NCBI GenBank assembly: GCA_019911965.1
Contig: JAIOJF010000015.1
Location: forward strand, 1-64,000
Direction of reading: 5' to 3'
Length of the DNA: 64,000 nt
Source of the DNA: Paracoccaceae bacterium
Lineage (GTDB): Bacteria; Pseudomonadota; Alphaproteobacteria; Rhodobacterales; Rhodobacteraceae
Shown here: positions 15,390 through 38,846 of the stretch, in pieces
Numbering within the stretch: the first letter of the stretch is position 1
How the letters are laid out: each line of letters starts with the position of its first letter
Translations under genes and position numbers: made by a program
Notes under the pieces: generated by a model
Databases searched by the model: none
What the model saw: the letters and a program-made list of their open reading frames with translations, nothing else
Told to the model about the DNA's origin: nothing

Positions 15390-18967
<3,578 letters not shown>

Positions 18968-18968
<1 letters not shown>

Positions 18969-21418
18969 TGCGACCCCCGGACCAACCAACACCTGACGTG
19001 GACGGAACAACCATGAAAGACTTGAAATTGACCGGCGCTCTGGCCGGTGCGATCGACTTCCACCTGGCCCATAGCGTCGGCAAGACCGCCGATACCGCCT
19101 CGATGACCGACTGGCGTCTGGCGCTGTCGCGCGCCGTACGCGACCGGCTGATCGCGCCCTGGTTTGACGCTACCCACCGCACCTATGCCATGGACCGCAA
19201 GCGCGTCTACTACCTGTCGATGGAGTTTCTGCTGGGCCGCATTCTGGAGGATGCGGTGAACAATCTCGGCCTTGAGGACGAGGCGAAAGAGGCGCTGGCC
19301 CAATACGGCGTGAATTACTGCGATGTCGTCAATGACGAACCGGATGCAGCGCTGGGCAATGGCGGATTGGGGCGGCTGGCGGCCTGTTTTCTGGACAGCC
19401 TGTCGTGCCTCGGCATCCCGGCCTACGGCTATGGCATCCGCTACGCCCACGGCCTGTTTCGCCAGTCCTTCGAGGATGGCCGCCAGATGGAGATGGCCGA
19501 GGACTGGCTGCGCCATCAGCACAACTGGGAATTTGAGCGCTCGGAATGCCTCTATGACATCGGCTTTGGCGGCGAGGTGGCCGAGACAGGCCGGCGCGCG
19601 GTCTGGTCCCCGTCCGACATCGTCATGGCGCAGGCCTATGACACGCCGGTGCCGGGCTGGCGCGCGCGCTGGACCAATACCCTGCGCCTGTGGTCTGCAA
19701 AGCCCAAGAAAATCTTTGACCTTGATCCGTTCAATCGCGGCGACTTCATGCAGGCTGCCGCACCCGAGGTGCTGGCCGAAACCATCTCCCGCGTGCTCTA
19801 TCCCGATGACAGCACCGGGATCGGCAAGGAATTGCGTCTCAAGCAGGAGTTTTTCTTCACCTCTGCCTCGTTGCAGGACCTGATGCGCCGGTTTCTGGCC
19901 CACAATGGCGATCTGCGCGCGCTACCTTCAAAGGTTGCGATCCAGATGAACGACACGCATCCCGCAATTGCCGGCCCCGAACTGATCCGGCAATTGATGG
20001 ATGTGCACGGGCTGGACTTCGCAGCCGCGTTCGAGATCGCCCAAGGCACATTGCACTACACCAACCACACATTACTCCCCGAGGCGCTGGAGGCATGGGA
20101 CGTGTCGCTGATGTCGACCATTCTGCCGCGACACATGCAGTTGATCGAACGAATTGACGACCGTCTGGCGCGCGATGTGAAAGCATCCCGGAAACGCGCC
20201 ACGCCTCGTATCGTTGCGGATGGCAGCGTCAATATGGGCACATTGGCCTTCACCTGCGCCCGCAAGGTCAACGGTGTGTCGGCCCTGCACACGGATCTGA
20301 TGAAACAGACCGTGTTCAGTGATCTGCATGGCGTCTACCCGGACCGGATATTGAACCAGACCAACGGCGTCACCCCGCGTCGCTGGGTCCACGGCTGCAA
20401 CCCTGGCCTGCGCAACCTTCTGAACAGCGAAATCGGCACCGGCTGGGTCAATGACCTGGAACAGCTGGAACGGCTTGTTCCGCTGGCAGAGGACAAGGAT
20501 TTCAGGGGGCGGTTCATGGCCGTGAAGCAGGCCAACAAACAGCGCCTTGCGGAATGGGTTGCCGAAAACACCGGGCTTAAAATCTCGCCCGATGCAATGT
20601 TTGACATCCAGATCAAGCGCATCCACGAATACAAGCGCCAACTGATGAACGCGCTGGAAACGGCAGCCCTTGCAAACGCAATCCGCCGTAACCCCGATGC
20701 CAACTGGACCCCTCGGGTCAAGTTATTTGGCGGCAAGGCTGCCCCTGCCTATCTTGACGCCAAGAACATCATCTGGCTGATCAATGACATCGCCCGGAAG
20801 GTGAATAACGATCCCGTCATCGGCGACCGGCTCAAGGTTGTCTATCCGCCCAATTACAATGTCTCGATGGCCGAAATCCTGATCCCGGCCGCAGATCTGT
20901 CCGAGCAGATTTCAACAGCGGGCAAAGAAGCCTCCGGCACCGGCAACATGAAATTCGCGCTGAACGGGGCGGCCACAATCGGAACCCTCGACGGGGCGAA
21001 TGTCGAAATTCGCGACCATGTGGGGGACGAGAACATCTTCATCTTCGGCATGACCGCGGCTGAGGTTCAGGCCGCGCATGACGGCTATGTTACGCAAGAC
21101 TATATCGACCAAAGCGCGGTTCTAGGCGAAGTTATCGACCAGATCAGGTCCGGCTTCTATTCGGAAGGCGATCCGACGCGTCATTGGCCCGTGCTCGAAA
21201 AACTGTTGCGCGATGACTATTTCATGGTGGCCGCCGATTTCGACGCCTATTGGGATGCGCAGCGCCGGGTCGATGCAAGCTTTGCACACAAAGATGCCTG
21301 GGCGCGCATGGCGGTGCTTAACACCGCACATTCCGGCTGGTTTTCCTCTGATAGAACCATTCAAGGCTATGCCGACGACATCTGGGGTGTCTCTTCGCTG
21401 TTGGGAGAAGACAAATGA
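18968..21418 (+). CDS. glgP: glycogen/maltodextrin phosphorylase
   Basis: Releases glucose-1-P from chain ends. The 816-residue GT35 protein shows RVYYLSMEFLLGR near the N-terminus and the PLP-lysine motif EASGTGNMKFALNGA at about residue 660. The start is ambiguous: an ATG at 18968 overlaps the pgm stop as TGATG, and MKDLKLTGAL at 19013 would give a protein shorter by 15 residues. Neither has a strong ribosome site. Confidence 0.95.
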
Positions 21419-23628
21419 CCAAAGCGAGCAATTATACCCCGGCCTTTGATGCGAACACCGCCGAAGCCTTGTTGAACGGCACCATGCCCGACCCTTTTTC
21501 CGTCCTTGGCGCGCATCGAAACGGACGCCGTTGGAGCGTTACGGCGCTCATTCCCGGCGCACAAGGTGTCGATGTGCTGGACGGCAGGACCGGCAAGGTC
21601 GAAACCTCGCTGGAGCGCCTGGACGGGCGCGGCCTGTTTTCCGGTTACGTGCGCAAAGGCGTTGCTACCGGGGCCTATCGTCTGCGTGCCAAAAACGGTG
21701 AAACCCAATGGGAGGTGAACGATGCCTACCGGTTTGGCCCCGTTCTGGGCGAGCTTGACGAATACCTGATAGCCGAGGGCGCTCATCTGAAACTGTGGGA
21801 GCGTATGGGCGCACATCCTTTGACACATGAAGGCGCACAGGGCGTTCATTTCGCTGTCTGGGCACCTGCGGCGAGCCGCGTTTCTGTGGTCGGAGAGTTC
21901 AACCAATGGGACGGGCGCCGCAATGTGATGCGGGCGCGCGGCACAACCGGCATCTGGGAAATCTTCATCCCCGATCTTGGTGAAGGGATTGTCTACAAGT
22001 ACGAAATCCGCGACCAGGCAGGAAACCTTTTGCCGCTAAAAGCAGATCCTATGGGTTTTGGCGCAGAACATCCCCCGGCAACGGCATCCGTCGTGCGCGA
22101 TCTGGGCGGTTTTGACTGGACGGATACGGACTGGATGACCACCCGCGCCTCCCGCAACCGCCATGACAAACCGGTCTCGATCTACGAGGTGCATCTTGGC
22201 TCCTGGCGGCGCAAGGTCGAAGACGGGAACCGCCCGCTCAGTTACCTGGAATTTGCCTCGGAACTGGTCGATTATGTCCGTGACATGGGCTTCACGCATG
22301 TTGAACTGATGCCGATCTCGGAATTTCCGTTCGACGGCTCCTGGGGCTATCAGCCGATCGGCCTTTTCGCGCCCACGATCCGATATGGCACACCGAACGA
22401 ATTTCGCGCCTTCGTGAATGCAGCCCATGTCGCAGGTCTTGGCGTTTTGCTGGACTGGGTGCCCGGGCATTTCCCGACCGACGCGCATGGTCTTGGCAGT
22501 TTCGACGGCACCGCACTTTACGAACATGCCGACCCGCGCGAAGGGTTCCACCAGGACTGGAACACGCTGATCTACAATTATGGCCGCCGCGAAGTGCAGA
22601 ACTTCCTTTGCGCCAACGCGCTTTACTGGATCAAGGAGTTTCACATCGACGGCCTGCGCGTCGATGCGGTCGCCTCAATGCTATATCGCGACTATTCCCG
22701 AAAGGACGGCGAATGGATCCCCAACGAACATGGCGGTCGCGAAAACCTGGAAGCCATTGCCTTCCTGCAGCGCACCAACGCGATGGTCTATGACGCCGAT
22801 GCCGGTATCCTGATGGCCGCCGAAGAAAGCACGTCATTCCCGGGCGTCAGCAAACCCGTTGACCAGGGCGGGCTTGGCTTCGGGTTTAAATGGAACATGG
22901 GCTGGATGAACGACACGCTGGATTACATGTCCCGCGATCCGATCCACCGGTCACATCACCATCATCAGATGACATTTGGCCTGACCTACGCGTTTTCCGA
23001 GAATTTCATCCTGCCGATCAGCCATGATGAGGTCGTGCATGGCAAAGGGTCGATGCTGACGAAAATGCCGGGCCAGGGCTTTGATCAGTTCGCCGGGCTT
23101 CGGTCCTACTACGGCTTCATGTGGGGCCATCCCGGCAAGAAGCTGTTGTTCATGGGGCAGGAATTTGCCCAAGGCTCTGAATGGAGCCACGAGCGCTCGC
23201 TCGACTGGCATCTGCTGGACCACGAGTGGCATCGCGGCATGCAGAACTGGGTTCGGGCGCTGAACGGGTTTTACGCCGGAACGCCGTCGCTTTATGCCTA
23301 CGATTGCGATCCGTCCGGGTTTTACTGGCTGGAGGTCGATCAATCCGACCTGTCGGTCTACGCCTGGGTGCGTCAAGGAAAGGACGGCGCGGACCCGATT
23401 GTCGTCGTCTGCAACATGACGCCGTCACCGCGCGATGGCTATCGCCTGGGGGTTCCCAATGCGGGGCGCTGGGACGTGGCGCTGAACAGCAACGCCGAAA
23501 CGTTTGGCGGCTCGGGGCATGGGCCGAAATCCTGTATCAGCGAGGCGGTCGCCTGGAGCGGGCAGGCGCAGTCGATCTCGTTCGATCTTCCCGGCAACAC
23601 GGTGCTTTTCATTCGCCTGAATGGCTAG
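21415..23628 (+). CDS. glgB: 1,4-alpha-glucan branching enzyme
   Basis: Introduces alpha-1,6 branches. The 737-residue length fits long-form GlgB: an extra N-terminal domain (about 1-110), CBM48 (about 120-210, VHFAVWAPAASRVSVVGEFN), a GH13 barrel and a C-terminal beta domain. Catalytic motifs are DGLRVDAVASMLYRDY, MAAEESTSFPG and ISHDEVVHGKGS. It overlaps the glgP stop as ATGA and ends the operon, with a hairpin directly after the stop. Confidence 0.96.
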   Translation: MTKASNYTPAFDANTAEALLNGTMPDPFSVLGAHRNGRRWSVTALIPGAQGVDVLDGRTGKVETSLERLDGRGLFSGYVRKGVATGAYRLRAKNGETQWEVNDAYRFGPVLGELDEYLIAEGAHLKLWERMGAHPLTHEGAQGVHFAVWAPAASRVSVVGEFNQWDGRRNVMRARGTTGIWEIFIPDLGEGIVYKYEIRDQAGNLLPLKADPMGFGAEHPPATASVVRDLGGFDWTDTDWMTTRASRNRHDKPVSIYEVHLGSWRRKVEDGNRPLSYLEFASELVDYVRDMGFTHVELMPISEFPFDGSWGYQPIGLFAPTIRYGTPNEFRAFVNAAHVAGLGVLLDWVPGHFPTDAHGLGSFDGTALYEHADPREGFHQDWNTLIYNYGRREVQNFLCANALYWIKEFHIDGLRVDAVASMLYRDYSRKDGEWIPNEHGGRENLEAIAFLQRTNAMVYDADAGILMAAEESTSFPGVSKPVDQGGLGFGFKWNMGWMNDTLDYMSRDPIHRSHHHHQMTFGLTYAFSENFILPISHDEVVHGKGSMLTKMPGQGFDQFAGLRSYYGFMWGHPGKKLLFMGQEFAQGSEWSHERSLDWHLLDHEWHRGMQNWVRALNGFYAGTPSLYAYDCDPSGFYWLEVDQSDLSVYAWVRQGKDGADPIVVVCNMTPSPRDGYRLGVPNAGRWDVALNSNAETFGGSGHGPKSCISEAVAWSGQAQSISFDLPGNTVLFIRLNG

Positions 23629-24284: not shown

Positions 24285-25739
24285 TCAGACGTCCTGGACC
24301 GAGCCGCGCTTGATGCCGATCTTCGAGCGATAGGATTGCGCCGCCTGGCTGATCGGTGACGGCGCGACGGTGGCGCGGATCCTGACCTGGCTGTGCATCT
24401 CGACATTGCCGGCGCTGCGCGCGCCGCCGCCATCCTCGCCCCAGACCAGCACAACCTCGGTGCCGTGTTCGGCGAAGTCCATATCGACACTGGCCAGCGA
24501 CAGCATCGCGCGTTCGTTGACGCTGTAGCTGGGATAGATCGACAGGCCGATCATGTTGCCCTTGGTATCCTCGACCCGGTCGTAATGCATCCGCGCCGTC
24601 GCCGCCAAAGGCATCGTGATCGGCAAGGGCGCATCCCCGGTCACGGTCTCAAGCTGCGACTGGTGGATCTTCATCACATCCTCGGCATTCCAGACCAGCG
24701 TCACCTTCTTGCGGTGCGGCTTGTCCTTCATCGCCTCCAGCGCGGCACGGCCGATGTAATCGTGATCGAATTTCACCAGATGGCCGCAATTCAGATCATA
24801 AGGCGACAGGTAGTAATCCTGAATGTCGGGGCTGTAGAAACTGCCGCCCAGCGACATCCGCATAGCCGCGTTTTTTGCCGACAGCCAGTCGCGGAAACCC
24901 TTCATCTCAGGGCTGGTATAGACCGCCGATACCGGCACCGCCCACCAGCCGCTTTCGATCACGGTGGTGAAATAGGCCAGCGAGCCGATCAGCCGCAAAC
25001 CGTATTTCTTGCCCGCCTTGACCAGTGCATTGCGCACCGTACGCAGATCCGCCCAGGGGCCGGACAGTTCCAGCCCCGGCACGCCGCCCATCGTGTGGCG
25101 CATGCCGCGAACCTTGCAGCCGGCGATGTTGATCGTGTCGGATTTGAAGAACTTGATCTCGGGCAGAGGCCCGCCATGCAGTTCTTCCAGCAACTCCCAG
25201 GCGTTCGGTCCTTCGACCTGGAAACGCCAGAATTCGCGCTTCTTGGCCTTGTTCAGCGCCCACATCGGATCAAGCTCGGAGGTTACGCCGTAATCCAGCG
25301 CCTGTGCGTTATATTCAACCCAGTCCGTGGTGGCGGGGTTGCCGACCACCAGAAAATCGTCTTCTTCCAGCCGGTAGAGGATCGCATCGCCGATGACATA
25401 GCCTTCGGGCGAGCAGACCAGCAATTGCTTGGCCGCGCCGACGCCGAAATTCCTGAACGTGTTGACTGACAGATATTGCAGGAATTCCAGCGCCTTCGCG
25501 CCACGGATATGCAGGGAATGCATGTGATAGGACTGATCATGCACCGCGATGGTATTGCGCCAGGACCATTGCTCGTCGCGCCAGGTGGTGAATTCCGGGC
25601 GGACCGCATCGCCAGGCATCATCTGCGTGTAAATGGTCGAGGCGTTTTTCGGCGGGTTCCGGAACAGGTAATCGGGGATATTCGGCACCGTGGCGATAAG
25701 ATCGCTCAGCGAGGTGATCTTCGTGTCGGCTGTGGTCAT
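24285..25739 (-). CDS. tetrahydrofolate-dependent aromatic O-demethylase (LigM/DesA type, GcvT family)
   Basis: The 484-residue protein resembles Sphingobium LigM/DesA along its length: FTTWRDEQWSWRN, YVIGDAILYRLEEDDF, FWRFQVEGPNAW, GCKVRGMRHTMGG, GGSFYSPDIQDYYLSPYDL, LVKFDHDYIGRAALEA, RKKVTLVWNAEDV and TEVVLVWGEDGGG all have counterparts. These enzymes move the methyl of vanillate, syringate or 3-O-methylgallate to tetrahydrofolate. I recognise this from memory of the family, not an alignment. DmdA (dimethylsulfoniopropionate demethylase) is a relative, but the match to LigM is better. The start has AGGAA nine bases upstream. Divergent from tetR; the candidate operator at 25821-25836 lies 81 bases upstream. 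Confidence 0.85.
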   Translation of the reverse strand: MTTADTKITSLSDLIATVPNIPDYLFRNPPKNASTIYTQMMPGDAVRPEFTTWRDEQWSWRNTIAVHDQSYHMHSLHIRGAKALEFLQYLSVNTFRNFGVGAAKQLLVCSPEGYVIGDAILYRLEEDDFLVVGNPATTDWVEYNAQALDYGVTSELDPMWALNKAKKREFWRFQVEGPNAWELLEELHGGPLPEIKFFKSDTINIAGCKVRGMRHTMGGVPGLELSGPWADLRTVRNALVKAGKKYGLRLIGSLAYFTTVIESGWWAVPVSAVYTSPEMKGFRDWLSAKNAAMRMSLGGSFYSPDIQDYYLSPYDLNCGHLVKFDHDYIGRAALEAMKDKPHRKKVTLVWNAEDVMKIHQSQLETVTGDAPLPITMPLAATARMHYDRVEDTKGNMIGLSIYPSYSVNERAMLSLASVDMDFAEHGTEVVLVWGEDGGGARSAGNVEMHSQVRIRATVAPSPISQAAQSYRSKIGIKRGSVQDV

Positions 25740-25820: not shown

Positions 25821-25836
25821 TCTATACTACTATAGA
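25821..25836. promoter_or_regulatory. candidate TetR operator, site 1
   Basis: TCTATACTACTATAGA has perfect six-base arms (TCTATA/TATAGA) around four bases. It lies in the 267-base divergent region between the demethylase and tetR. The same pattern recurs at 26633-26648 in front of the acyl-CoA ligase, and both copies continue TATAGAAA. Confidence 0.6.
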
Positions 25837-26006
25837 AATAGATCAACAAGGATTTTGCCGCTCCGGCACTTTTGTTGGCGCGCCGCCTTCGCACGGAACC
25901 GCGCTGGATTGCCTTTGCGCTTTCCTGCAAGCCCGGAGTCGCTTAAAACAATCCGCAACCCCGGTGCCCGAAGCAGCGCGCCGAATGTGAAAGAGGACAG
26001 GCGAAC

Positions 26007-26639
26007 ATGGCAACCGAACGGGCAGCGGCGCGCAAGCCGAGCATCCGCAAGCGCAATGACGAGATTTTCGATGCCGCAGCCCGGGTCTTTGCCGAGCGCG
26101 GCTATCACGGTGCATCAACCCAGGACATTGCCGATCTGCTGGGGATGCGCCAGGCCAGCCTGTACTATTATTTCAGCTCCAAAGAGGCCGCGCTGGAAGA
26201 GGTCTGCGCGATAGGTGCGGCGGGATTCGTTGAAAACGCTGAAGAAATTGCCGCCAATGACGCCGGACCAACCGAAAAGCTGCGGGCGCTGGCCAGCGTT
26301 CACATCACGCCGCTGGCCGAGCGCCCGGATTTCACACGTACCTTCCTGAACGAACGCAAATGGCTGCCGACCGAAAGCCGGCGGCGCATCGGCGGCATGT
26401 CCCGGCGGATCGAGGCGATTTTCGAGGGCGTCATCCGCGCCGGCATGCGCCAGGGCGAATTTCGCAGCGATCTGAACGTGCGCCTGACGATGTTCGGCAT
26501 CCTCGGCATGGTCAATTCGGTGCAGATCTGGCTGGATCGCGCCAACAAGACGCCCTCCGAGATTGCCGAATACCTGGCCGACATGGCGGTTGCCAGCGTG
26601 CGTGCAGTTGATCCGCCAGAGCCGGAAAAAAATATATAG
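26007..26639 (+). CDS. TetR/AcrR-family transcriptional regulator
   Basis: The 210-residue protein has a typical N-terminal helix-turn-helix at about 37-57 (STQDIADLLGMRQASLYYYF) after FDAAARVFAERGYHGA. The C-terminal ligand domain has the pattern of regulators of fatty-acid or aromatic acyl-CoA metabolism. Between a divergent demethylase and a co-directional acyl-CoA ligase, it is probably the local repressor, relieved by a CoA ester. The second operator-like repeat overlaps its own stop codon. Confidence 0.9.
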   Translation: MATERAAARKPSIRKRNDEIFDAAARVFAERGYHGASTQDIADLLGMRQASLYYYFSSKEAALEEVCAIGAAGFVENAEEIAANDAGPTEKLRALASVHITPLAERPDFTRTFLNERKWLPTESRRRIGGMSRRIEAIFEGVIRAGMRQGEFRSDLNVRLTMFGILGMVNSVQIWLDRANKTPSEIAEYLADMAVASVRAVDPPEPEKNI

Positions 26640-26648
26640 CTTTATAGA
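26633..26648. promoter_or_regulatory. candidate TetR operator, site 2
   Basis: TATATAGCTTTATAGA matches site 1 in the right arm exactly and in five of six left-arm bases. It covers the tetR stop codon (TAG at 26637-26639) and lies 53 bases before the acyl-CoA ligase start. A further CTATAG at 26658-26663 could be part of the -10 region. Confidence 0.55.
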
Positions 26649-28635: not shown

Positions 28636-29799
28636 ATGAAGAAAATCTGTATGATCGCCAGCATCGTCGCGGCCAGTTTTCATGCCTCGGGTGCAATGGC
28701 TGAGGATGCCCTGAAAATCGGCCTGACCGGGGCCCTGACCGGGCCGGTTGCGGGCACCTACGCCCCCGCTGTCGAGGGGCTGCGCCTCTATGTCGATGCC
28801 CTGAATGCGGGAGGCGGCATCAATGGCGCAATGGTCGAGCTGATCCTGCAGGACGACGGCGCGGAGCCGTCGCGTGCCGCGGCCAATGCCAAGCGGTTCA
28901 TCACCCAGGACAATGTGGTGATGATGATCAATGCCAGCCTGTCCTCGACCTTCGCGCCCAGCATCGCGGAAACCAGCCGCGCCGGGGTGCCGCTGATGTT
29001 CGCCGCCTCGGCCTGCCCGCAGGAAGTTTTCCCGCCGGCCAATGCCAACCTGTTCTGCACCACCGCCTTTGGTGCAAAATATGACAGCCACGCCGCACTT
29101 CAGTTTATCGAAGGCCAGGCCGGCAGCGATATCAAGATCGGCTTCCAGGCGATGGCGATTCCCCTGTCGCGCGGCGAGATCGACTATGCCGAAGGCGTGG
29201 CCGCAAGCATGGGCATGACCCCGGTGGCCAAGGAAATCACCCCGCCTCCGGCCCCGGATTACTCGCCCTTTGCCTCGAATATCAGCGATGCCGGTGCGGA
29301 ATGGGTCTGGTCCTGGGCACCCTGGGGCGCACAGGTAAAGACATTCGAGGCGCTGCGGCGGCTCGGCTGGAGCGGCTCCTATGTCGCCTATGCGCATCTG
29401 GAAGCCGAAAGCGAACTGGCGCGGGTGCATGACGAGACCTTCTATCTGGTCGGCGCCAATGCCCTGTTCACCGAAAACCTGCCGGTGATGCAGACCATAA
29501 CCGCTGCTGCCCAGGCCGCCGGGTCCAGCTATGCGGCAAACCAGCTTACCGAGGGCTGGATCGCCGGTATGGTGATCGAGGCGGCGCTGAAGGCGGCGTC
29601 GGACCCCGGCGATGCCGGTTCGGTGCGTGACGCGATGTCGAACCTGACCGTCGATCTGCAGGGGCTTCGCGGCGGCCCGCTGGTCTGGACGGAAACCAAC
29701 CATTTCCGCACCACGCAAAGCTATCGCGTCTATCGCTGGAATGCGGCGAACAATGCGATCGAAACGGTGCAGGACTGGACATCGTTCGACGTCGAATAA
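28636..29799 (+). CDS. ABC transporter substrate-binding protein, Leu/Ile/Val-aromatic type
   Basis: The 387-residue periplasmic protein has a signal peptide (about 1-22, cut after AMA). It then shows KIGLTGALTGPVAG and a type I periplasmic-binding fold of the LivJ/Leu-binding family (Peripla_BP_6). RBS AAGGA. It heads a full permease/ATPase set (livHMFG-like). Several members of this family bind aromatic acids rather than amino acids. The neighbouring ligase and O-demethylase make a lignin-derived aromatic acid the preferred hypothesis; nothing in the sequence alone fixes the ligand. Confidence 0.9.
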   Translation: MKKICMIASIVAASFHASGAMAEDALKIGLTGALTGPVAGTYAPAVEGLRLYVDALNAGGGINGAMVELILQDDGAEPSRAAANAKRFITQDNVVMMINASLSSTFAPSIAETSRAGVPLMFAASACPQEVFPPANANLFCTTAFGAKYDSHAALQFIEGQAGSDIKIGFQAMAIPLSRGEIDYAEGVAASMGMTPVAKEITPPPAPDYSPFASNISDAGAEWVWSWAPWGAQVKTFEALRRLGWSGSYVAYAHLEAESELARVHDETFYLVGANALFTENLPVMQTITAAAQAAGSSYAANQLTEGWIAGMVIEAALKAASDPGDAGSVRDAMSNLTVDLQGLRGGPLVWTETNHFRTTQSYRVYRWNAANNAIETVQDWTSFDVE

Positions 29800-29855: not shown

Positions 29856-30728
29856 ATGCAGTTTGCCGTGAATATCCTGGTCCTGGCCTCGATCTATGCA
29901 TTGATCGCCAGCGGCTATGTGCTGATCTACCGGGTCAGCCGGGTTCTCAACCTTGCGCATGGCGAATTGATGATGTTCGGGGCCTACCTTCTGGTCACCA
30001 CCGCGGCGGGGCTGTCCTCCAGCCCCGTTGTCGCCATCCTGCTGGCCCTGGCGATGAGCCTCATGGTCGGCGGTCTGGTCTATCTGTTCCTGATGCGGCG
30101 CATGACCGGCGAGATGGCGCTGGCAGCGGTTCTGACCACGGTGGCGCTGGGAATCCTGTTGCGCGGGCTGATCCTGATGTTCTGGTCGGCCAGCCCGCAG
30201 CATCCACGCGACACGCTTGGCTGGGAGAACCCGGTGCTGATGCTGCCGGGCGATGCGCGGATTTCGCTGTTCGCGGCCTTGCTGGTTGCATCCACGATAC
30301 TGGTCTATGCCGGCCTGTTCGCGTTTCTGCGGTTCAGCCGCTGGGGCATGCGGATGCGCGCCGCCGGTCAAAATCCGCTGCTGGCGGCACAGCGGGGCAT
30401 CAACCTGCATGCCGTTTTTGCCCTGGCCTGGGCGCTGTCAACCTTCACCGGTGCAATTGCAGGCATGCTGATCGCGCTCGATTCCGGGCTGGACAGCACG
30501 ATGGTGATGATCGGCCTGAAGGCGTTTCCGGCGGCACTGGTCGGCGGGCTGGACAGCCTGCTGGGGGCGTTGATCGGGGCGCTGATCATCGCCGCCGCCG
30601 AAGTGGGGGTGATCAAATATGTCGATCCCCTGCTGGCGGATGTCATCCCCTTTGCCGTGCTGGTGGTGATGCTGGTGATCCGTCCCTGGGGTCTGTTCGG
30701 AACGCGCGAGGAGCTTGATCGTGTCTAA
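29856..30728 (+). CDS. branched-chain-type ABC permease, LivH-like
   Basis: The 290-residue inner-membrane protein has about eight hydrophobic segments and the LivH start pattern (ASIYALIASGYVLIYRVSRVLNLAHGELMMFGAYL). It pairs with the LivM-like protein to form the channel. The start has GGTAGG upstream. The stop overlaps the livM-like start by eight bases. Confidence 0.92.
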   Translation: MQFAVNILVLASIYALIASGYVLIYRVSRVLNLAHGELMMFGAYLLVTTAAGLSSSPVVAILLALAMSLMVGGLVYLFLMRRMTGEMALAAVLTTVALGILLRGLILMFWSASPQHPRDTLGWENPVLMLPGDARISLFAALLVASTILVYAGLFAFLRFSRWGMRMRAAGQNPLLAAQRGINLHAVFALAWALSTFTGAIAGMLIALDSGLDSTMVMIGLKAFPAALVGGLDSLLGALIGALIIAAAEVGVIKYVDPLLADVIPFAVLVVMLVIRPWGLFGTREELDRV

Positions 30729-31800
30729 GCCCCTGCCAAACGCATCGGGCCATTTCCGCCGCTCGCATGCTGACGAATTCCGCCTGATCGAAACCGGGTT
30801 TTCCCGGACGATGCTGGCGCTGTTCATCATCGCGCTGGTCTCGTTTCCGTTCCTGTTCTCGTCCTTCTATGTCGATCTGGCGGCGCAGGTATTCCTGGCC
30901 TCCATCGGGGCCTTGTCGCTGATGTTGTTGACCGGGATTGCCGGGCAGATCAGCCTTGGTCATGCCGGGCTGATCGCGGCGGGGGCATTCACCGCCGGTA
31001 TCCTGTTCAAGGAATTCGCCCTGCCGTTCTGGGTGACCATTCCGGCAGCCGCACTGGTCGGTGCCGGTATCGGCGTTCTGTTCGGCCTGCCGTCGCTCAG
31101 GCTGCGCGGCCTCTATCTGGCGGTCTCGACGCTGGCGCTGCATTTCATCGTGGTGTTTCTGGGCGGCGAATATGAAACCCGCCGGGGGTTTTCGACCGGC
31201 ATCCTGATCGACCCGCCGGTGGTGTTCGGATACGAGGTCTATTCCACCCGTGCCTGGTATTTCACGCTGGCGGTTGCGGCGGCGGTCACGCTATGGATCT
31301 GCATCAACCTGATGCGCTCGCGCTCGGGGCGGGCGTGGAAATCCATCCACGCCAACGAGACCGTGGCCGAGGCGATCGGCATCGGTGTCACCCGCTACAA
31401 GTTGCTGGCCTTCGTCGTCTCGTCGTCCATGACCGCCGTTGCCGGGGCCTTGTTCGCCTATTATCGCGGCTTCGTCTCGATCGAGGCGTTTTCGCTTTAC
31501 CTGACCATTCAATATGTGGCGATGATCATCATCGGCGGCATGGGCAGCCTGCTTGGGGCCTTGCTGGGCGCGGTTTTCGTGACGCTGTTTCCCTATATCA
31601 TCGAAGCGCTGGTCAGCGTGCTGCCGGGGGCCGACCGGCTGGCCGGATCGGTCTTCGCCTTCAACTATGCCGCGTTCGGCATCGTGATGATCCTGTTCCT
31701 GGTGTTCGAGCCGCAAGGCCTGGTCGGCATCTGGCGGCGCATCCGCGACTATTTCGTGCTGTGGCCGTTCCGCTTCAAGGCGATGGGAGGGCGCAAATGA
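30721..31800 (+). CDS. branched-chain-type ABC permease, LivM-like
   Basis: The 359-residue polytopic membrane protein has the family segment LLTGIAGQISLGHAGLIAAGAF and FEPQGLVGIWRRI at the end. I chose GTG at 30721, which has GAGGAG seven bases upstream, over a TTG two codons earlier. The stop overlaps the next ATPase gene as ATGA. Confidence 0.92.
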   Translation: MSKPLPNASGHFRRSHADEFRLIETGFSRTMLALFIIALVSFPFLFSSFYVDLAAQVFLASIGALSLMLLTGIAGQISLGHAGLIAAGAFTAGILFKEFALPFWVTIPAAALVGAGIGVLFGLPSLRLRGLYLAVSTLALHFIVVFLGGEYETRRGFSTGILIDPPVVFGYEVYSTRAWYFTLAVAAAVTLWICINLMRSRSGRAWKSIHANETVAEAIGIGVTRYKLLAFVVSSSMTAVAGALFAYYRGFVSIEAFSLYLTIQYVAMIIIGGMGSLLGALLGAVFVTLFPYIIEALVSVLPGADRLAGSVFAFNYAAFGIVMILFLVFEPQGLVGIWRRIRDYFVLWPFRFKAMGGRK

Positions 31801-32597
31801 CCGCCGAACCGCTGCTTGTCGTGGAAAAGCTGGAGGTTGTCTATCAGCGCGCCATCACCGCCATTCAGGGCGTGTCGCTGAAGGTCTATCCCAACCAGAT
31901 CGTGGCGCTGCTGGGCACCAACGGGGCCGGCAAGACAACCACCTTGCGGGCGATTTCTGGCTTTCTGGGGCTGGACGATGCGCGGGTGACGGAAGGCACG
32001 GTCACCTATCGCGGCATCCACTTGGAAAACCGCGAACCCTACGAGGTTACCCGGCATGGCCTGTCGCTGGTGCCCGAGCGCGACAAGGTGTTTCCGAACC
32101 TGACAGTCGCCGAGAACCTGGCCGTGGTGCCCGGGCGACGGGGCCGAAGCAACCGCCGCATGCTGGAGCAGGTCTACCACTTCTTCCCCGGCCTGAAGGA
32201 TTTGCGCAGGCGCGAGGCCGGGCTTTTGTCGGGCGGCGAGCGGCAGATGCTGGCGGTTGCCGCCGGGCTGATGTGCGATCCCGAAATGCTGCTGATTGAT
32301 GAATTGTCGCTGGGCCTGTCGCCGGTCGCGGTGCAAAGCCTGACTGCCAGCCTTGTCGCCATCCGTAACGAATTGAAGATCAGCATCCTTCTGGTCGAAC
32401 AAAGCGCGGTCGTGGCGCTGGAAATCGCCGATATGGGCTATGTGCTGGAAAATGGCCGCGTGGTACTGGACGGCGATGCCCAGAGGTTGCTGAACCATTC
32501 CGACGTGCAGGAATTCTATCTCGGACATACCGGCGGCGACCGGCGCAGTTATCGTGACGTGAAACAATATCGCCGGAACCGGAGGTGGTATGGCTGA
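31797..32597 (+). CDS. branched-chain-type ABC ATPase, LivF-like
   Basis: The 266-residue cytoplasmic ATPase has Walker A GTNGAGKTT, signature LSGGERQMLAVA and Walker B MLLIDELSLGLSP, in the LivF subfamily pattern (LSLGLSPV). The C-terminal ~15 residues are unusually Arg/Tyr-rich (SYRDVKQYRRNRRWYG). Gene order is F before G, unlike E. coli livKHMGF. Confidence 0.92.
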   Translation: MTAEPLLVVEKLEVVYQRAITAIQGVSLKVYPNQIVALLGTNGAGKTTTLRAISGFLGLDDARVTEGTVTYRGIHLENREPYEVTRHGLSLVPERDKVFPNLTVAENLAVVPGRRGRSNRRMLEQVYHFFPGLKDLRRREAGLLSGGERQMLAVAAGLMCDPEMLLIDELSLGLSPVAVQSLTASLVAIRNELKISILLVEQSAVVALEIADMGYVLENGRVVLDGDAQRLLNHSDVQEFYLGHTGGDRRSYRDVKQYRRNRRWYG

Positions 32598-33354
32598 ACT
32601 GGACATTGCGAATCTCAGCCTGAGCTTCGGCGGCCTTACGGTGCTGGAGGATTTGTCGCTGTCGGTGGAACCGGGCGAGCTGTTCGCGCTGATCGGGCCG
32701 AACGGTGCAGGAAAGACCAGCGTTTTCAACTGCATCAGCGGCATTTATCACCCAAGCGCCGGCAGTATCCGCTTTCGCGGGCGCAACATCCTTGGGCTTG
32801 ACCCGTCGCAGGTGGCGCGTGCCGGGCTGGCGCGAACCTTTCAGCATGGCGAATTGTTCGGCGAAATGAGCGTGATCGACAACCTTTTGGCGGCGCGCCA
32901 TGCCAAGTTCCGCACCAACGTTCTGGCCGAGGCGCTGTTCCTGCCATCGGTCCGCCGTCAGGAACTGGCGCATCGCGAGGCGGTCGAGAAGATCATCGAA
33001 TTCACCGAACTGGAACCGGTGCGGCATGCGCCGGTCGGCGGTTTGCCCTTCGGCATCCAGAAACTCGCCGGTTTTGCCCGCGCGCTGGCGATGGAACCCG
33101 ATTTCCTGATGCTGGACGAACCATCCGCCGGGCTGAACCGGGACGAGCGCGAGGACCTTGCGCGTTTCCTGTTGCGTATCAAGCACGAGCTTGGCCTGGC
33201 AATGATCTGGATCGAGCACGACATGCAGATGGTGGCCGATCTGGCCGACCGGCTGCATGTGCTGGATTACGGGCGCACGATCTCGGTTGGAAAACCGCAA
33301 GAGGTTCTGAATGATCCCGAGGTGATCAAGGCCTATCTTGGTCTGGCGGTGTAG
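32590..33354 (+). CDS. branched-chain-type ABC ATPase, LivG-like
   Basis: The 254-residue ATPase has Walker A GPNGAGKTS and Walker B FLMLDEPSAGLN, and resembles LivG (ARTFQHGELFGEMSVIDNL). The signature segment reads LPFGIQKLAGFARAL, so the usual [LS][SP][YF]GxQ-[RK] core is altered (GIQKL). It overlaps the preceding gene by eight bases. It converges on the Rieske gene with only four bases between stops and no terminator. Confidence 0.92.
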   Translation: MAELDIANLSLSFGGLTVLEDLSLSVEPGELFALIGPNGAGKTSVFNCISGIYHPSAGSIRFRGRNILGLDPSQVARAGLARTFQHGELFGEMSVIDNLLAARHAKFRTNVLAEALFLPSVRRQELAHREAVEKIIEFTELEPVRHAPVGGLPFGIQKLAGFARALAMEPDFLMLDEPSAGLNRDEREDLARFLLRIKHELGLAMIWIEHDMQMVADLADRLHVLDYGRTISVGKPQEVLNDPEVIKAYLGLAV

Positions 33355-33358
33355 CCGC

Positions 33359-34399
33359 CTACTGGCTCATCTTGGCATCCACCGCCGCTTCCTCGGCAAT
33401 CATCGCCTCCAACTGGCGGCGGAACCGAAGCTGGCCGCCGTCGATCGGCAGATCGATATGCGGGCTGGTCTTGCTGGCCATGCCGATCTGCACATGGGTC
33501 AGGACCTCGCGGTCTTCCTCGAAGGCGTGCTGGACATCGTCGCTCATCATCCGGCTCAACTCGGCATCGTCGGGGCGGATATTGCGCAACTGGAACCAGT
33601 AGTAGCGGGTTTCGCTTTGCGTCGTCGGGGTCATGAAGTTGAAGCTGTCCATGATGAAGGTATCGTCATGCAGCTTGCCGTCCGGCCCGCCGGTGCCTGC
33701 CGGCGTGAACACCGCGCGGATCAGTGCGTGGCTGGGATAGCGCACCTCGTAATGCTGCAGGCGGTCGCAATTGCCCTTGAAGCCGATAACCTTCTTGTAA
33801 AACGGTGCCGGTTCCACATCCATCATCCATCGATGCACGATGATGCCGTCCTCCGTCTTGCTGACCCTGAGGGGGGTGTCCTTGGTCGCGGCCTGCGCGA
33901 ACGAACCTTCATGCACCCAGGCCACATGCGTCGGATCCAGCAGATTGTCGCACATCAGCAGGTAATTGCACGGCAATTCCATCGCCGCCCCGCGATTGAC
34001 GCCCCAGTCCGGGTTGTCCCAGTTCTCGATCTCGAAAATCTCGGCCGGGTCGGCCAGTGCCGGATTGCCCATCCAGATCCAGACCAGATCGTATTTCTCG
34101 ACCATCGGATAGGCGCGCACATTGGCATTGGACGGAATGCGCCCGACCCCCGGTGCCCAGACGCATTTGCCGGCGCAATCGAAGGTCAGGCCGTGATAGC
34201 CGCATTCCACCTGATCGCCCTTCAGGCGGCCCTTGCTGAGGGGCAGCTTGCGGTGCGGGCAGGCATCTTCCAGCCCGATGATCTCGCCATCTTCGGTGCG
34301 AAAGGCGCAGATATGTTCGCCGAGAACCGTGATCCGTTGCAGATCGCGGGTGATTTCATCGGCCCATCCGGCCACGTACCAGGCGTTGCGCAAGAACAT
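33359..34399 (-). CDS. Rieske-type aromatic/N-methyl oxygenase, VanA-like, in the hut operon
   Basis: The 346-residue oxygenase has the Rieske cluster ligands C47-P-H49 and C66-GY-H69 and a C-terminal catalytic domain whose NLLDPTHVAWVHEG supplies mononuclear-iron ligands. This resembles the oxygenase component of vanillate O-demethylase. GGAGG precedes the start, one base after the hutU stop, so it is almost certainly co-transcribed with hutIGU. No VanB-like reductase is nearby. It could demethylate a methoxy-aromatic (fits the liv/LigM cluster next door) or an N-methylated histidine or urocanate derivative (fits the operon); the substrate is unproven. Confidence 0.85.
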   Translation of the reverse strand: MFLRNAWYVAGWADEITRDLQRITVLGEHICAFRTEDGEIIGLEDACPHRKLPLSKGRLKGDQVECGYHGLTFDCAGKCVWAPGVGRIPSNANVRAYPMVEKYDLVWIWMGNPALADPAEIFEIENWDNPDWGVNRGAAMELPCNYLLMCDNLLDPTHVAWVHEGSFAQAATKDTPLRVSKTEDGIIVHRWMMDVEPAPFYKKVIGFKGNCDRLQHYEVRYPSHALIRAVFTPAGTGGPDGKLHDDTFIMDSFNFMTPTTQSETRYYWFQLRNIRPDDAELSRMMSDDVQHAFEEDREVLTHVQIGMASKTSPHIDLPIDGGQLRFRRQLEAMIAEEAAVDAKMSQ

Positions 34400-34400
34400 C

Positions 34401-36074
34401 TCAAACCTCCAGAATGCCGGGCAGGTCCAGCCCGTTTTCGCGTGCGCATTCCAGCGCTTCCTCGTAGCCCGCATCGGCATGGCGCCAGACACCGCTGGCC
34501 GGATCGTTCCACAATACGCGTTCCAGCCGTCTGGCGGCTTCGGGCGTGCCATCGGCGCAGATCACCACCCCGGCGTGTTGGCTGAAGCCCATGCCGACGC
34601 CGCCGCCGTGATGGATGCTGACCCAGGTTGCGCCCGAGGCGGTGTTGACCAGCGCATTCAGCAAGGGCCAGTCCGACACCGCGTCCGAGCCGTCGCGCAT
34701 GGCTTCGGTTTCGCGGTTGGGCGAGGCGACCGAGCCGGAATCCAGGTGATCACGCCCGATCACCACCGGCGCTTTCAATTCGCCGCTGGCGACCATCTCG
34801 TTGAAGGCCAGCCCGGCGCGGTGGCGATCGCCAAGCCCGATCCAGCAGATCCGTGCGGGCAGGCCCTGAAAGGCGATGCGATCACGCGCCATGTCCAGCC
34901 AATTGTGCAGATGCGTGTTTTCGGGGAACAATTCCTTCATTTTCCGGTCGGTCTTGTAGATATCCTCGGGATCGCCCGACAGCGCCACCCAGCGGAATGG
35001 GCCGATGCCCCGGCAGAACAGCGGGCGGATATAGGCGGGTACGAAACCGGGGAAGGCGAAGGCGTTGTCCAGCCCTTCCTCCAGCGCCATCTGGCGGATA
35101 TTGTTGCCGTAATCGACGGTTGGCACCCCGGCCTCGTGGAATTTCACCATCGCCGCCACCTGCACCTTCATACTGGCGCGCGCCGCCTTGTTGACGCGGG
35201 CCGGATCGCTTTGCTGGCGTTCCTTCCATTCGCCCATCGTCCAGCCTTGCGGCAGATAGCCGTGGATCGGGTCATGGGCGCTGGTCTGGTCGGTGACGAT
35301 ATCGGGGCGCACGCCGCGATTGTACATTTCGGGAAAGACATCCGCCGCATTGCCCAGCAGCGCCACCGATTTCGCCTCGCCCGCCTTGGTCCAGCGGGCG
35401 ATCATCGCAAGGGCTTCGTCCAGGCTGTCGGTCTTTTCATCGACATAGCGGGTGCGCAGGCGGAAATCTATGCTGTCGGGATTGCATTCCACCGCCAGGC
35501 AGCAGGCCCCGGCCATCACGGCGGCCAGGGGCTGTGCGCCGCCCATGCCGCCAAGCCCGCCGGTCAGCACCCATTTGCCGGTCAGATCGCCGCCGTAATG
35601 CTGACGACCGGCCTCGGCGAAGGTCTCGTAAGTGCCCTGCACGATGCCTTGCGAGCCGATGTAAATCCACGATCCGGCGGTCATCTGGCCGTACATCGCC
35701 AGACCCTTCTTGTCCAATTCGTTGAAATGCTCCCAATTGGCCCAATGCGGCACCAGGTTGGAATTGGCGATCAGCACGCGCGGCGCATCGCAGTGGGTTC
35801 GGACCACCGCCACCGGCTTGCCCGATTGCACGACAAGGGTTTCGTCGCCCTCAAGCCGCTTCAGGCTGTCGACGATCAGGTCGAAATCCTTCCAGGTCCG
35901 CGCGGCCCGGCCAATGCCGCCATAGACAACCAGTTCATGCGGGTTTTCCGCCACATCCGGGTGCAGGTTGTTCATCAGCATCCGCAACGGCGCTTCGGTC
36001 TGCCAGCTTTTGGCGTTCAGTTCGGTGCCGGTCGGGGGATAGACATCCCGGCTGTTCTTGCGCGGATCACTCAT
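34401..36074 (-). CDS. hutU: urocanate hydratase
   Basis: Hydrates urocanate to imidazolone propionate using tightly bound NAD+. The 557-residue length equals the family norm; [14 protein letters not shown] binds the NAD pyrophosphate and the conserved Cys in [16 protein letters not shown] lies in the active site. The start overlaps hutG as ATGA. Confidence 0.97.
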
Positions 36075-36859
36075 TGGGGCCTCCAGTCGGACAGGGTTTC
36101 AAGGATTGTTTTCAGATGCTTGCGCAAGCGCTCGGCGGCTGGCCGGTCGTAGCTCCAGGGCGCGCGTTCCAGCATATAGGCCGATTGCGCCAGTTCCATC
36201 TGGATCGCATGCAGCCCGTCGGCGGGCTGCCCGTAATGGCGGGTGGTCCAGCCGCCCTTGAAGCGGCCATTGATGATCGTGGTGTAGCCATTCGCCGTTT
36301 CGCAAGCCTCGCGGACCAAGGCTTCGACTCCGGGATCACAGGTCGCGCCGTTATTCGTGCCTATGTTGAAATCCGGCAATCTGCCGTCGAACAGGAACGG
36401 GATATGCGAGCGGATCGAGTGGCAATCATAGAGGATGGCAAAGCCGTGCAGTTCGCGCACCCGCGCCAGTTCCGCCGCGATGGCAGCGTGATAGGGCGCG
36501 TGCCAGGCTTCCCTCCGCCGGGCAATCTCGGCCTCGTCGGGTTCCTGACCGTCGCGGTAGATCGCCCGCCCGTCGAAATCGGTCAGCGGGCAGAGGCCGG
36601 TGGTGTTCTGCCCCGGATAAAGGCTATTGCCGCCGGGATCGCGGTTCACGTCGATTGCGTAGCGGTGGATTTTGGTGCGCACGCTGGTCGCATCGGCCAC
36701 CAGACCGGCGTAAAGCATGTGGATATGCCAATCGGTATCGTCCATGCCGCGGCCATGATCGTTCAGGCGGGCGGCGCAATCGTCGGGCAATTCGGTGCCG
36801 GTATGGGGCAGGCCCAGCACCAGGGGGCTGGTGCCGCGTGTGACCTCAACGAAGCTCAT
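36071..36859 (-). CDS. hutG: N-formylglutamate deformylase
   Basis: Releases formate and glutamate from N-formylglutamate, the last step of the five-step histidine pathway. The 262-residue protein has [12 protein letters not shown] and [16 protein letters not shown], typical of the N-formylglutamate amidohydrolase family. It is not the arginase-like formiminoglutamase. A formiminoglutamate deiminase (hutF) would then be needed and is not in the window. The start lies 14 bases inside hutI. Confidence 0.9.
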
Positions 36860-38057
36860 GCACGCCCCCGAACACCCGCGCATGCAGCGGGTTGATGCCG
36901 ATGCCATAGGCCAGCTCGCCCGGTTCCTCGACATTCCAGATCGCCAGATCGGCCCGCTTGCCCGGCGCGATCACGCCGCAATCGGACAGCCCGAGCGCGC
37001 GGGCGGCATGGCGGGTGGTGCCGGCCAGCGCCTCGGCCGGGGTCATCTCGAACAGGGTGCAGGCCATGTTCATCGCTAGCAGCAACGAGCCGAGCGGCGA
37101 GGAGCCGGGGTTCCAATCAGTTGCGACCGCCATCGCCACGCCCTGCGCACGAAAGGCGGCAATCGGCGGCTTCCGGGTCTCGCGGATGGTGTAGAACGCG
37201 CCGGGCAGGATCACCGCAACGCTGCCGGATGCCGCCATCGCCCGGGCGTCAGCCTCGGTCGCGTATTCCAGATGATCGACCGACATTGCCCCGAACCGCG
37301 CCGCCAATGGCGTGCCGCCGATATTGCTCAACTGGTCGGAATGCAGCTTGACTGGCAGGCCAAGCGCACGGGCGCGGGCGAATACCCGCTCGATCTGGGC
37401 GGCATCGAAAGCGATGCCTTCGCAGAACCCGTCCACCGCATCGACAAGCCCTTCGCCGTGGGCGGCGTCCAGCGCCGGAAGGCAGACATTGTCAATATAA
37501 GCGTCGGCATCGGCCCCGGCGGGCACCGCATGTGCGCCCAGAAAGGTGGTGCGCACCCGAACCGGGCGCAAATCGGCGATCCGTCGCGCGACCCGCAGCA
37601 TTTTCAGTTCGGTGTCACGGTCCAGCCCGTAGCCCGATTTCACCTCGATCACCGAAACACCCTGGGCGATCAGGGCATCGGCGCGAACCAGTGCGCGTTG
37701 CAACAACGCGTCCTCAGTGGCGGCGCGGGTTGCGGCGACGGTTGACACGATGCCGCCCCCGGCGCGGGCGACCTCTTCGTAGCTTGCCCCGTTCAGGCGC
37801 ATTTCAAATTCGCGCGCGCGGTTGCCGCCAAAAACGATATGGGTGTGGCAATCGACCAGCGCCGGTGTCACTAGCCGACCCCCGCAGGACACTTCGCGCA
37901 GCCCGGAATACTGGCCTTCCAGATTGCCGCGCATACCGGCCCAGACGATCCGGCCATCCTCGATCACAATTGCCGCATCCGGGATCAATCCATAGCCGTC
38001 TGGCGAAGGCTCCATCGTGGCGGCATTTGCGTCGACCAGGGCGTATCTGTCGGTCAT
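36846..38057 (-). CDS. hutI: imidazolonepropionase
   Basis: Opens the ring of imidazolone propionate to give formiminoglutamate. The 403-residue amidohydrolase has metal ligands in [23 protein letters not shown] and [11 protein letters not shown], and the substrate region EVKSGYGLD. The start [11 protein letters not shown] has AGGACA upstream; an ATG nine codons earlier falls close to the operator and is less likely. First gene of the hut operon. Confidence 0.96.
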
Positions 38058-38092
38058 GGCTTGTCCTGAGTTAAGTTCGCGCATATAATTAT

Positions 38093-38106
38093 TATGTAGC
38101 TACATA
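38093..38106. promoter_or_regulatory. probable HutC operator
   Basis: TATGTAGCTACATA is a perfect 14-base palindrome in the AT-rich 87-base gap between divergent hutI and hutC. HutC-type GntR repressors bind TGTA-N2-TACA-like palindromes, which this contains (TGTAGCTACA). It likely represses both directions, with relief by urocanate. Confidence 0.7.
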
Positions 38107-38144
38107 TTAATGTCAATGGAAACATCTGCCGAGGATTCAGAGAC

Positions 38145-38846
38145 ATGCCCGCCGACCTGCGCCATTCCTGGACCGATATCCGCGACCGTATCCACGGCGC
38201 CATCCTGAACGGAACCTATCGCCCCGGCGACAAGCTGCCCCGCGACGAGGATATCGCGCAACAGATGGGTTGCGCGCGCTCTACCGTGCAACGCGCCATG
38301 CGCGATCTGTCCGATGCCGGGATTGTCGAGCGCAAGCGCAAGGGCGGCACGCAGGTCCGCGCCGATCCGCTGACCCGCGCGACGCTGGATATCCCGATCA
38401 CCCGCCGCGAGGTGGAACAGCGCGGCAGCGTCTATGGCTACCAGTTGCTGCACCGTGAAATTGCGGTTGCGCCGTTATCCGTCGGGGCGCGGTTCGCGCG
38501 GCGCGATCCCAGCCGGATGCTGCATGTCGAGGCCCTGCACCTTGCCGACCAGCGCCCCTATATCCTTGAGGATCGCTGGGTCTGCACCGATACCGTGCCC
38601 GAGATATTGAGCGTGGATCTGTCGCGGCAAAGCGCCAATGAATGGCTGGTCCACAACAAGCCCTACAGCCGCTGTGACCTGAGGTTCTACGCTATCGAGG
38701 CGGATGCCCGCATCGCGCGCCAGCTTGACGCCGCTCCCGGCGCGGCCTTGCTGGTGATGGAACGCACCACCTGGATCGAGGATGCCCCGATCACCACGGT
38801 GCGCGCGGTCACCCGCCCGGGCTATCAGCTTTTTACCCGAAGTTAG
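38145..38846 (+). CDS. hutC: GntR-family histidine utilisation repressor
   Basis: The 233-residue protein has an N-terminal GntR winged helix (about 10-75: YRPGDKLPRDEDIAQQMG, then ARSTVQRAMRDLSDAGIVER) and a C-terminal UTRA ligand domain ending MERTTWIEDAPITTVRAVTRPG. Divergent from hutI across the palindrome at 38093-38106, it fits HutC, whose known inducer is urocanate. GAGGA precedes the start. Confidence 0.93.
   Translation: MPADLRHSWTDIRDRIHGAILNGTYRPGDKLPRDEDIAQQMGCARSTVQRAMRDLSDAGIVERKRKGGTQVRADPLTRATLDIPITRREVEQRGSVYGYQLLHREIAVAPLSVGARFARRDPSRMLHVEALHLADQRPYILEDRWVCTDTVPEILSVDLSRQSANEWLVHNKPYSRCDLRFYAIEADARIARQLDAAPGAALLVMERTTWIEDAPITTVRAVTRPGYQLFTRS

Follow-up and report, generated by a model that had tools for sequence, protein, structure and literature searches.

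Organization of the locus

The analysed window is a stretch of 64,000 nucleotides from contig JAIOJF010000015.1 of a Paracoccaceae bacterium. It contains a gene for a TetR-family regulator, flanked on one side by a divergent gene for a LigM/DesA-like protein and on the other by genes for an acyl-CoA ligase and a liv-type importer (Table 1). Two palindromes, 812 bp apart, border tetR. The first lies 81 nt from the start of the demethylase gene and 170 nt from that of tetR, while the second stands 53 nt before the ligase start and spans the tetR stop codon (26637–26639).

The original prediction placed both repeats exactly, including the overlap with the stop codon. It described them as two copies of TCTATA-N4-TATAGA with a common AAA flank. 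The first is indeed an exact copy, but the second matches the pattern with one mismatch. As to the flank, only AA is common to both, since site 1 reads TATAGA-AAT.

Table 1. Genes and candidate regulatory elements of the tetR locus in the window
Feature	Position	Strand	Remarks
LigM/DesA-like protein, probably a tetrahydrofolate-dependent O-demethylase, 484 aa, GCV_T domain	24285..25739	-	Family and structure-sequence matches
Possible demethylase promoter	25821..25849	-	TTGTTG 25844-25849, 17 nt, TATAGA 25821-25826; overlapped by operator 1; found by inspection, weak
Candidate operator 1, TCTATACTACTATAGA	25821..25836	.	Between demethylase and tetR; recurs 5' of tetR in relatives
TetR-family regulator, 210 aa	26007..26639	+	TetR_N and TetR_C_24; recognition helix GMRQASLYYYF (residues 46-56)
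Candidate operator 2, TATATAGCTTTATAGA	26633..26648	.	Over tetR stop codon, before ligase
Acyl-CoA ligase (AMP-binding), 624 aa	26702..28576	+	Adjoins tetR in relatives
liv-type substrate-binding protein	28636..29799	+	Family search and gene order in relatives
liv-type permease 1	29856..30728	+	Family search and gene order in relatives
liv-type permease 2	30715..31800	+	Family search and gene order in relatives
liv-type ATPase 1 (UrtE/LivF-like)	31788..32597	+	Start set at 31788 inside a longer mechanical ORF
liv-type ATPase 2 (LivG-like)	32590..33354	+	Family search and gene order in relatives

All 7 relatives with a fully readable locus (L012, L013, L016–L018, L020, and L021) have the order tetR–ligase–liv with all five importer genes, and L015, L019, and L022 show it as far as their DNA extends. 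In L012 and L013, a demethylase gene is divergent from tetR, which is followed by genes for the ligase, binding protein, two permeases, and two ATPases. L014 carries the demethylase gene and tetR, and its sequence ends within the latter.

Other genes of the window were noted in passing. At 33359–38846 lie hutC-hutI-hutG-hutU, all above their NCBIfam cut-offs, and a gene for a VanA-type Rieske oxygenase that follows hutU immediately in the same orientation; hutH is on a separate contig of the genome (C41). We rejected the hut genes and the oxygenase as regulon members, as no match with up to 3 mismatches was found in the 27–44 kb part of the window. ORFs at 17265–23628 resemble by eye phosphoglucomutase, glycogen phosphorylase, and branching enzyme.

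Occurrence of the palindromes

In the whole assembly of this genome (3.67 Mb, 60 contigs, 99.36% complete), exact matches to TMTATAN4TATAGA occur at these two places only, and the reversed-pattern control yielded 0. When one mismatch to TCTATAN4TATAGA was allowed, a single extra place appeared (C22:62702), which lies within a DndB-like gene, so that no further non-coding site exists in the assembly at this threshold. With up to 2 mismatches there were 17 places (14 of them with two mismatches) versus 31 for the reversed control, that is, no enrichment. A wider genome regulon was dismissed on these two grounds. With up to 1 mismatch allowed, a first-order Markov model of the window predicts 3e-5 chance matches per 830 bp, and base composition 2e-4 per 900 bp; as the search pattern was taken from site 1, these values concern the discovery of a second site.

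A motif search around homologous tetR genes, proposed along with the original prediction, found the palindrome conserved in the closer relatives. We studied relatives of the regulator from a collection of species genomes, namely the best 80 of at least 499 confirmed stretches, and looked for sites with up to 1 mismatch from -500 to +300 around the tetR match. As the control, 59 palindromes of permuted letters were used. Among the 14 relatives that are 35–69% identical to the window TetR (L012–L025), 13 have a site, always 5′ of tetR, which represents fewer than 13 independent cases because L015–L022 are related to one another and L020–L022 are near copies. The control palindromes gave a mean of about 0.02 (0.017) and at most 1 of 14. 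For the remaining 66 of these best 80 (L026–L091; about 30% identical, mostly Bacillus-type), a site was seen in 1, with a control mean of 0.54 and a maximum of 5.

The second site recurs as well. It is present in all 10 readable tetR–ligase gaps of L012–L022, with 1 mismatch to the pattern in L012 and L013 and 2 in L015–L022; L014 stops before the tetR stop codon and is thus outside this count. Aligned sites have a mean information of 1.66 bits inside versus 0.38 outside (site 1, 12 rows) and 1.67 versus 0.57 (site 2, 9 rows), the inside values being partly high by construction, as the rows were picked for having a site; the fair test is therefore the permuted-palindrome control. Both alignments omit L021 and L022, which are nearly identical to L020. 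The consensus of 21 sites is TCTATAG-N2-CTATAGA, with arms of 7 bp and a spacer of 2 bp in place of 6 and 4 bp.

Wider searches delimited this distribution. A search for the TetR across 292 genomes from the bacterium's own order (E<=1e-25) returned the window's own protein only, and a plasmid collection gave no TetR match at E<=1e-20 and one ligase match (39%). In a sample of the class, 12 of 385 genomes (own included) had matches at E<=1e-20, adding 17 new loci (L105–L121), none of which has a site with up to 2 mismatches within roughly 2–3.6 kb each. The same 385 genomes were scanned with TCTATAGNNCTATAGA, a stricter pattern that the window's own sites do not match; it was found in 2 (L103 and L104), and its reversed control in 1. 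Both matches lie in AT-richer 3-kb loci with no TetR ORF by eye and were taken as chance.

The regulator and its recognition helix

The TetR_N domain of the regulator scores 60.9 bits against a cut-off of 24. Within the best 80 of at least 499 relatives, the helix motif [RK]Q[AG]SLYYYF is present in 14 of 14 proteins of L012–L025 and in none of the other 66. However, the correspondence of helix and site is not strict. L023 (43% identical, helix IRQGSLYYYF) has no site near tetR, nor does L105 (51–53% identical), which shares this helix and is a real counterexample; L106 and L107, with the helix QAG, have none at up to 2 mismatches. Behind tetR, L105 carries a different palindrome, ACTGTTTTGTGCTAAACAGT, about 630 nt past the point where the tetR match begins, counted along the strand of tetR.

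The structure of the regulator was predicted with a mean pLDDT of 88.9. Among known folds, Foldseek placed the model closest to PfmR (E 5.5e-10) and FadR, then to DarR, KstR2, and AibR. The ligands of PfmR and KstR2 are acyl-CoAs, and the listed structures 3whc (FadR) and 5k7h/5k7z (AibR) are acyl-CoA complexes. DarR, at rank 7, binds c-di-AMP, and so the list only suggests an acyl-CoA ligand for the modelled protein. In the NCBIfam FadR equivalog, the window TetR reaches 71.9 bits, under the cut-off of 200.

The divergent gene and its exchange

The window demethylase matches the LigM structures 5tl4/5x1i with about 404 bits. It scores 463.6 bits in the equivalog of the vanillate/3-O-methylgallate demethylase LigM (NF047885, cut-off 580) and 494 bits in the equivalog of the syringate demethylase DesA (NF047633, cut-off 800), under the threshold in both cases. 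LigM and 6 of 10 further relatives have an arginine in the VGRAP motif, where all four demethylases of the module have Asn. Tyr256 aligns with the Tyr of GSRAY in LigM and is kept in all four. The aligned LigM residues are presumably R122, which binds the carboxylate of vanillate, and Y247, which acts in catalysis. A second LigM/DesA-like protein is encoded elsewhere in the genome (L102, C6:97301–98581); it is 38–40% identical and has the VGRAP arginine.

Each of the eight loci L015–L022 has a MetE-like gene divergent from tetR (cut off by the contig end after 95 residues in L015), keeps both sites, and shows no demethylase gene within the locus DNA. The two MetE-like proteins that we tested (L016 and L020) match Meth_synt_2 and pass the PRK06520 cut-off. 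In a TetR tree of 13 rows, one supported branch (97/96) parts the regulators linked to a demethylase (4) from those linked to a MetE-like gene (6), so that a single exchange suffices. L023, L024, and L025 are unlabelled in this tree; they have long branches, and their placement is unsure. L024 (6708–9700) combines tetR and a perfect site with a divergent Amidohydro_2 gene, and its MetE-like gene, which spans two frames, lies behind tetR on the same strand.

Away from the locus, the genome under study also has a MetE-like gene of the PRK06520 type (L123, C48:23165–24265), on a contig with no operator-like place at up to 2 mismatches.

The "methoxy-aromatic" label given to the module by the original prediction is not borne out by these results: both equivalog cut-offs are missed, the VGR arginine is replaced, and a MetE-like gene stands in for the demethylase in L015–L022. 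With the scores below the cut-offs and the arginine lost, a substrate of the vanillate or syringate type is possible.

Proposed regulation

As the sites recur at both positions and the recognition helix matches, the demethylase and the ligase–importer genes probably form one local regulon of the neighbouring TetR. To this extent the earlier claim of one TetR controlling demethylase, ligase, and importer was supported. Autoregulation, the last part of that claim, is plausible: the mechanically chosen tetR starts of L024 and L025 follow the site at about 50 and 30 nt, respectively; in the window the distance is 170 nt.

The locus probably serves to import and activate an organic acid, which is probably methylated. 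We infer, with a probability of roughly 80%, that a TetR dimer sits on the two 16-bp palindromes and represses the demethylase and the ligase–liv genes until a CoA thioester releases it. Once bound, the regulator would block the promoters of two units, the divergent gene for the LigM-like demethylase and the ligase–liv operon, and perhaps its own as well. A scan for consensus sigma-70 promoters found none, so that steric repression is a step we infer. The CTAT half-sites would be read by Gln49, Ser51, and Tyr53. The presence of an acyl-CoA ligase in the operon makes the CoA thioester of the imported acid the likely inducer: once taken up, the acid would be converted by the ligase, and its thioester would probably release TetR.

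That the repeats are chance AT-rich sequence is a reading to which we give hardly any credence. The motif is short, its second copy carries a mismatch, and copies with two mismatches show no enrichment across the genome, but chance would have to overcome an expectation of 3e-5 to 2e-4 in the stretch and is contradicted by the recurrence in relatives. Somewhat better placed, yet improbable, is the view that the repeats are -10 elements (TATAGA/TAGAAT) which appear palindromic and are no operators. Such elements would account for the fact that in 17 of 25 rows the right arm with the flank toward the outward gene reads TATAGAAT, which resembles a -10 box. However, neither the left arm nor the constant symmetry is required for a promoter, other palindromes built from the same letters hardly occur in these positions, if at all, and sites also precede tetR in L024 and L025, where the gene contexts differ.

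A further reading accepts the operators and differs in the substrate. The regulon would consist of the ligase–importer genes and one or the other one-carbon gene, with a substrate that is not a methoxybenzoate and a demethylase that acts on a different methyl ether or methyl donor. The eight loci L015–L022 all speak for it, since they keep tetR, ligase, importer (where readable), and sites next to a divergent MetE-like gene, as do the Asn in the four module demethylases and scores short of 800 and 580 bits. On the other hand, the match to LigM structures and the kept Tyr256 favour an O-demethylase, and the role of the VGR arginine in carboxylate binding is taken from general knowledge. We give this reading even odds.

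Going beyond repression of the two transcription units by TetR, the kept TetR–operator pair and the exchanged one-carbon gene (a MetE-like 5-methyl-THF methyltransferase in L015–L022 versus a LigM-like demethylase with an altered substrate pocket in the clade of the window) might mark an undescribed pathway for uptake and CoA activation of methylated acids, in which the methyl group would pass via folate and the CoA thioester would be sensed by a TetR with an AmtR-type code. This is a tentative idea which we consider rather doubtful. The type of regulator is already known; what stands out most in this locus is that one one-carbon gene has replaced another beneath a conserved operator, which offers a clue to a substrate with a transferable methyl group. 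Among titles and abstract openings from one open-licence library, we recognised no report of TetR control of a LigM/DesA-type enzyme or of a locus combining MetE-like, TetR, ligase, and liv genes. Here, uncharacterised catabolic genes are given a candidate operator, a binding code, and a local regulon that can be tested directly, with possible relevance to lignin-derived and other methylated acids.

Comparison with known systems

The enzyme of the window is of the GCV_T type, like LigM and DesA, and differs from them by its scores and the replaced arginine. Control of a LigM-type demethylase gene by a repressor has a precedent in DesR, which, according to the part of the source concerned with it, represses ligM, desB, and desR in Sphingobium SYK-6 (PMC6888825). 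DesR, as described there, belongs to another protein family (MarR-type) and has a different operator, GTTTGTGTCACATAC.

In its predicted fold, the window TetR resembles PfmR, FadR of Bacillus, KstR2, and AibR. Its Bacillus-type relatives (L028 on, among the best 80 of at least 499) have a different recognition helix, and their sites are not above the control level. TetR itself controls efflux, and no efflux gene is found at the window locus. The half-site CTAT is shared with tetO, but the spacer there is 5, versus 6 at the window sites, as far as the operator comparison in PMC2723105 goes.

The closest likeness in DNA recognition is to AmtR of Corynebacterium glutamicum, whose box, in the relevant part of the source, is tttCTATN6AtAGat/aA (PMC2723105). 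The half-site CTAT, the spacer of 6, the helix residues R-Q-A-S-L-Y-Y, and the Q/S/Y contacts are common to both: the window helix G46-M-R-Q-A-S-L-Y-Y-Y55 equals G50-I-R-Q-A-S-L-Y-Y-H59 of AmtR in 8 of 10 positions, and the three residues proposed to read the half-sites correspond to Gln53, Ser55, and Tyr57. In the mutant data of the same part, alanine exchanges of these residues weakened binding and that of His59 abolished it (PMC2723105), and its table equates Gln53, Ser55, and Tyr57 with Gln38, Thr40, and Tyr42 of TetR. AmtR Ile51 is Met and the essential His59 is Tyr in the window protein.

AmtR interacts with GlnK and governs nitrogen genes, whereas exact sites in the assembly of the window are confined to the ligase/importer/demethylase locus. 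The comparison suggests that the AmtR half-site code is also used by a proteobacterial TetR whose predicted fold is closest to acyl-CoA regulators.
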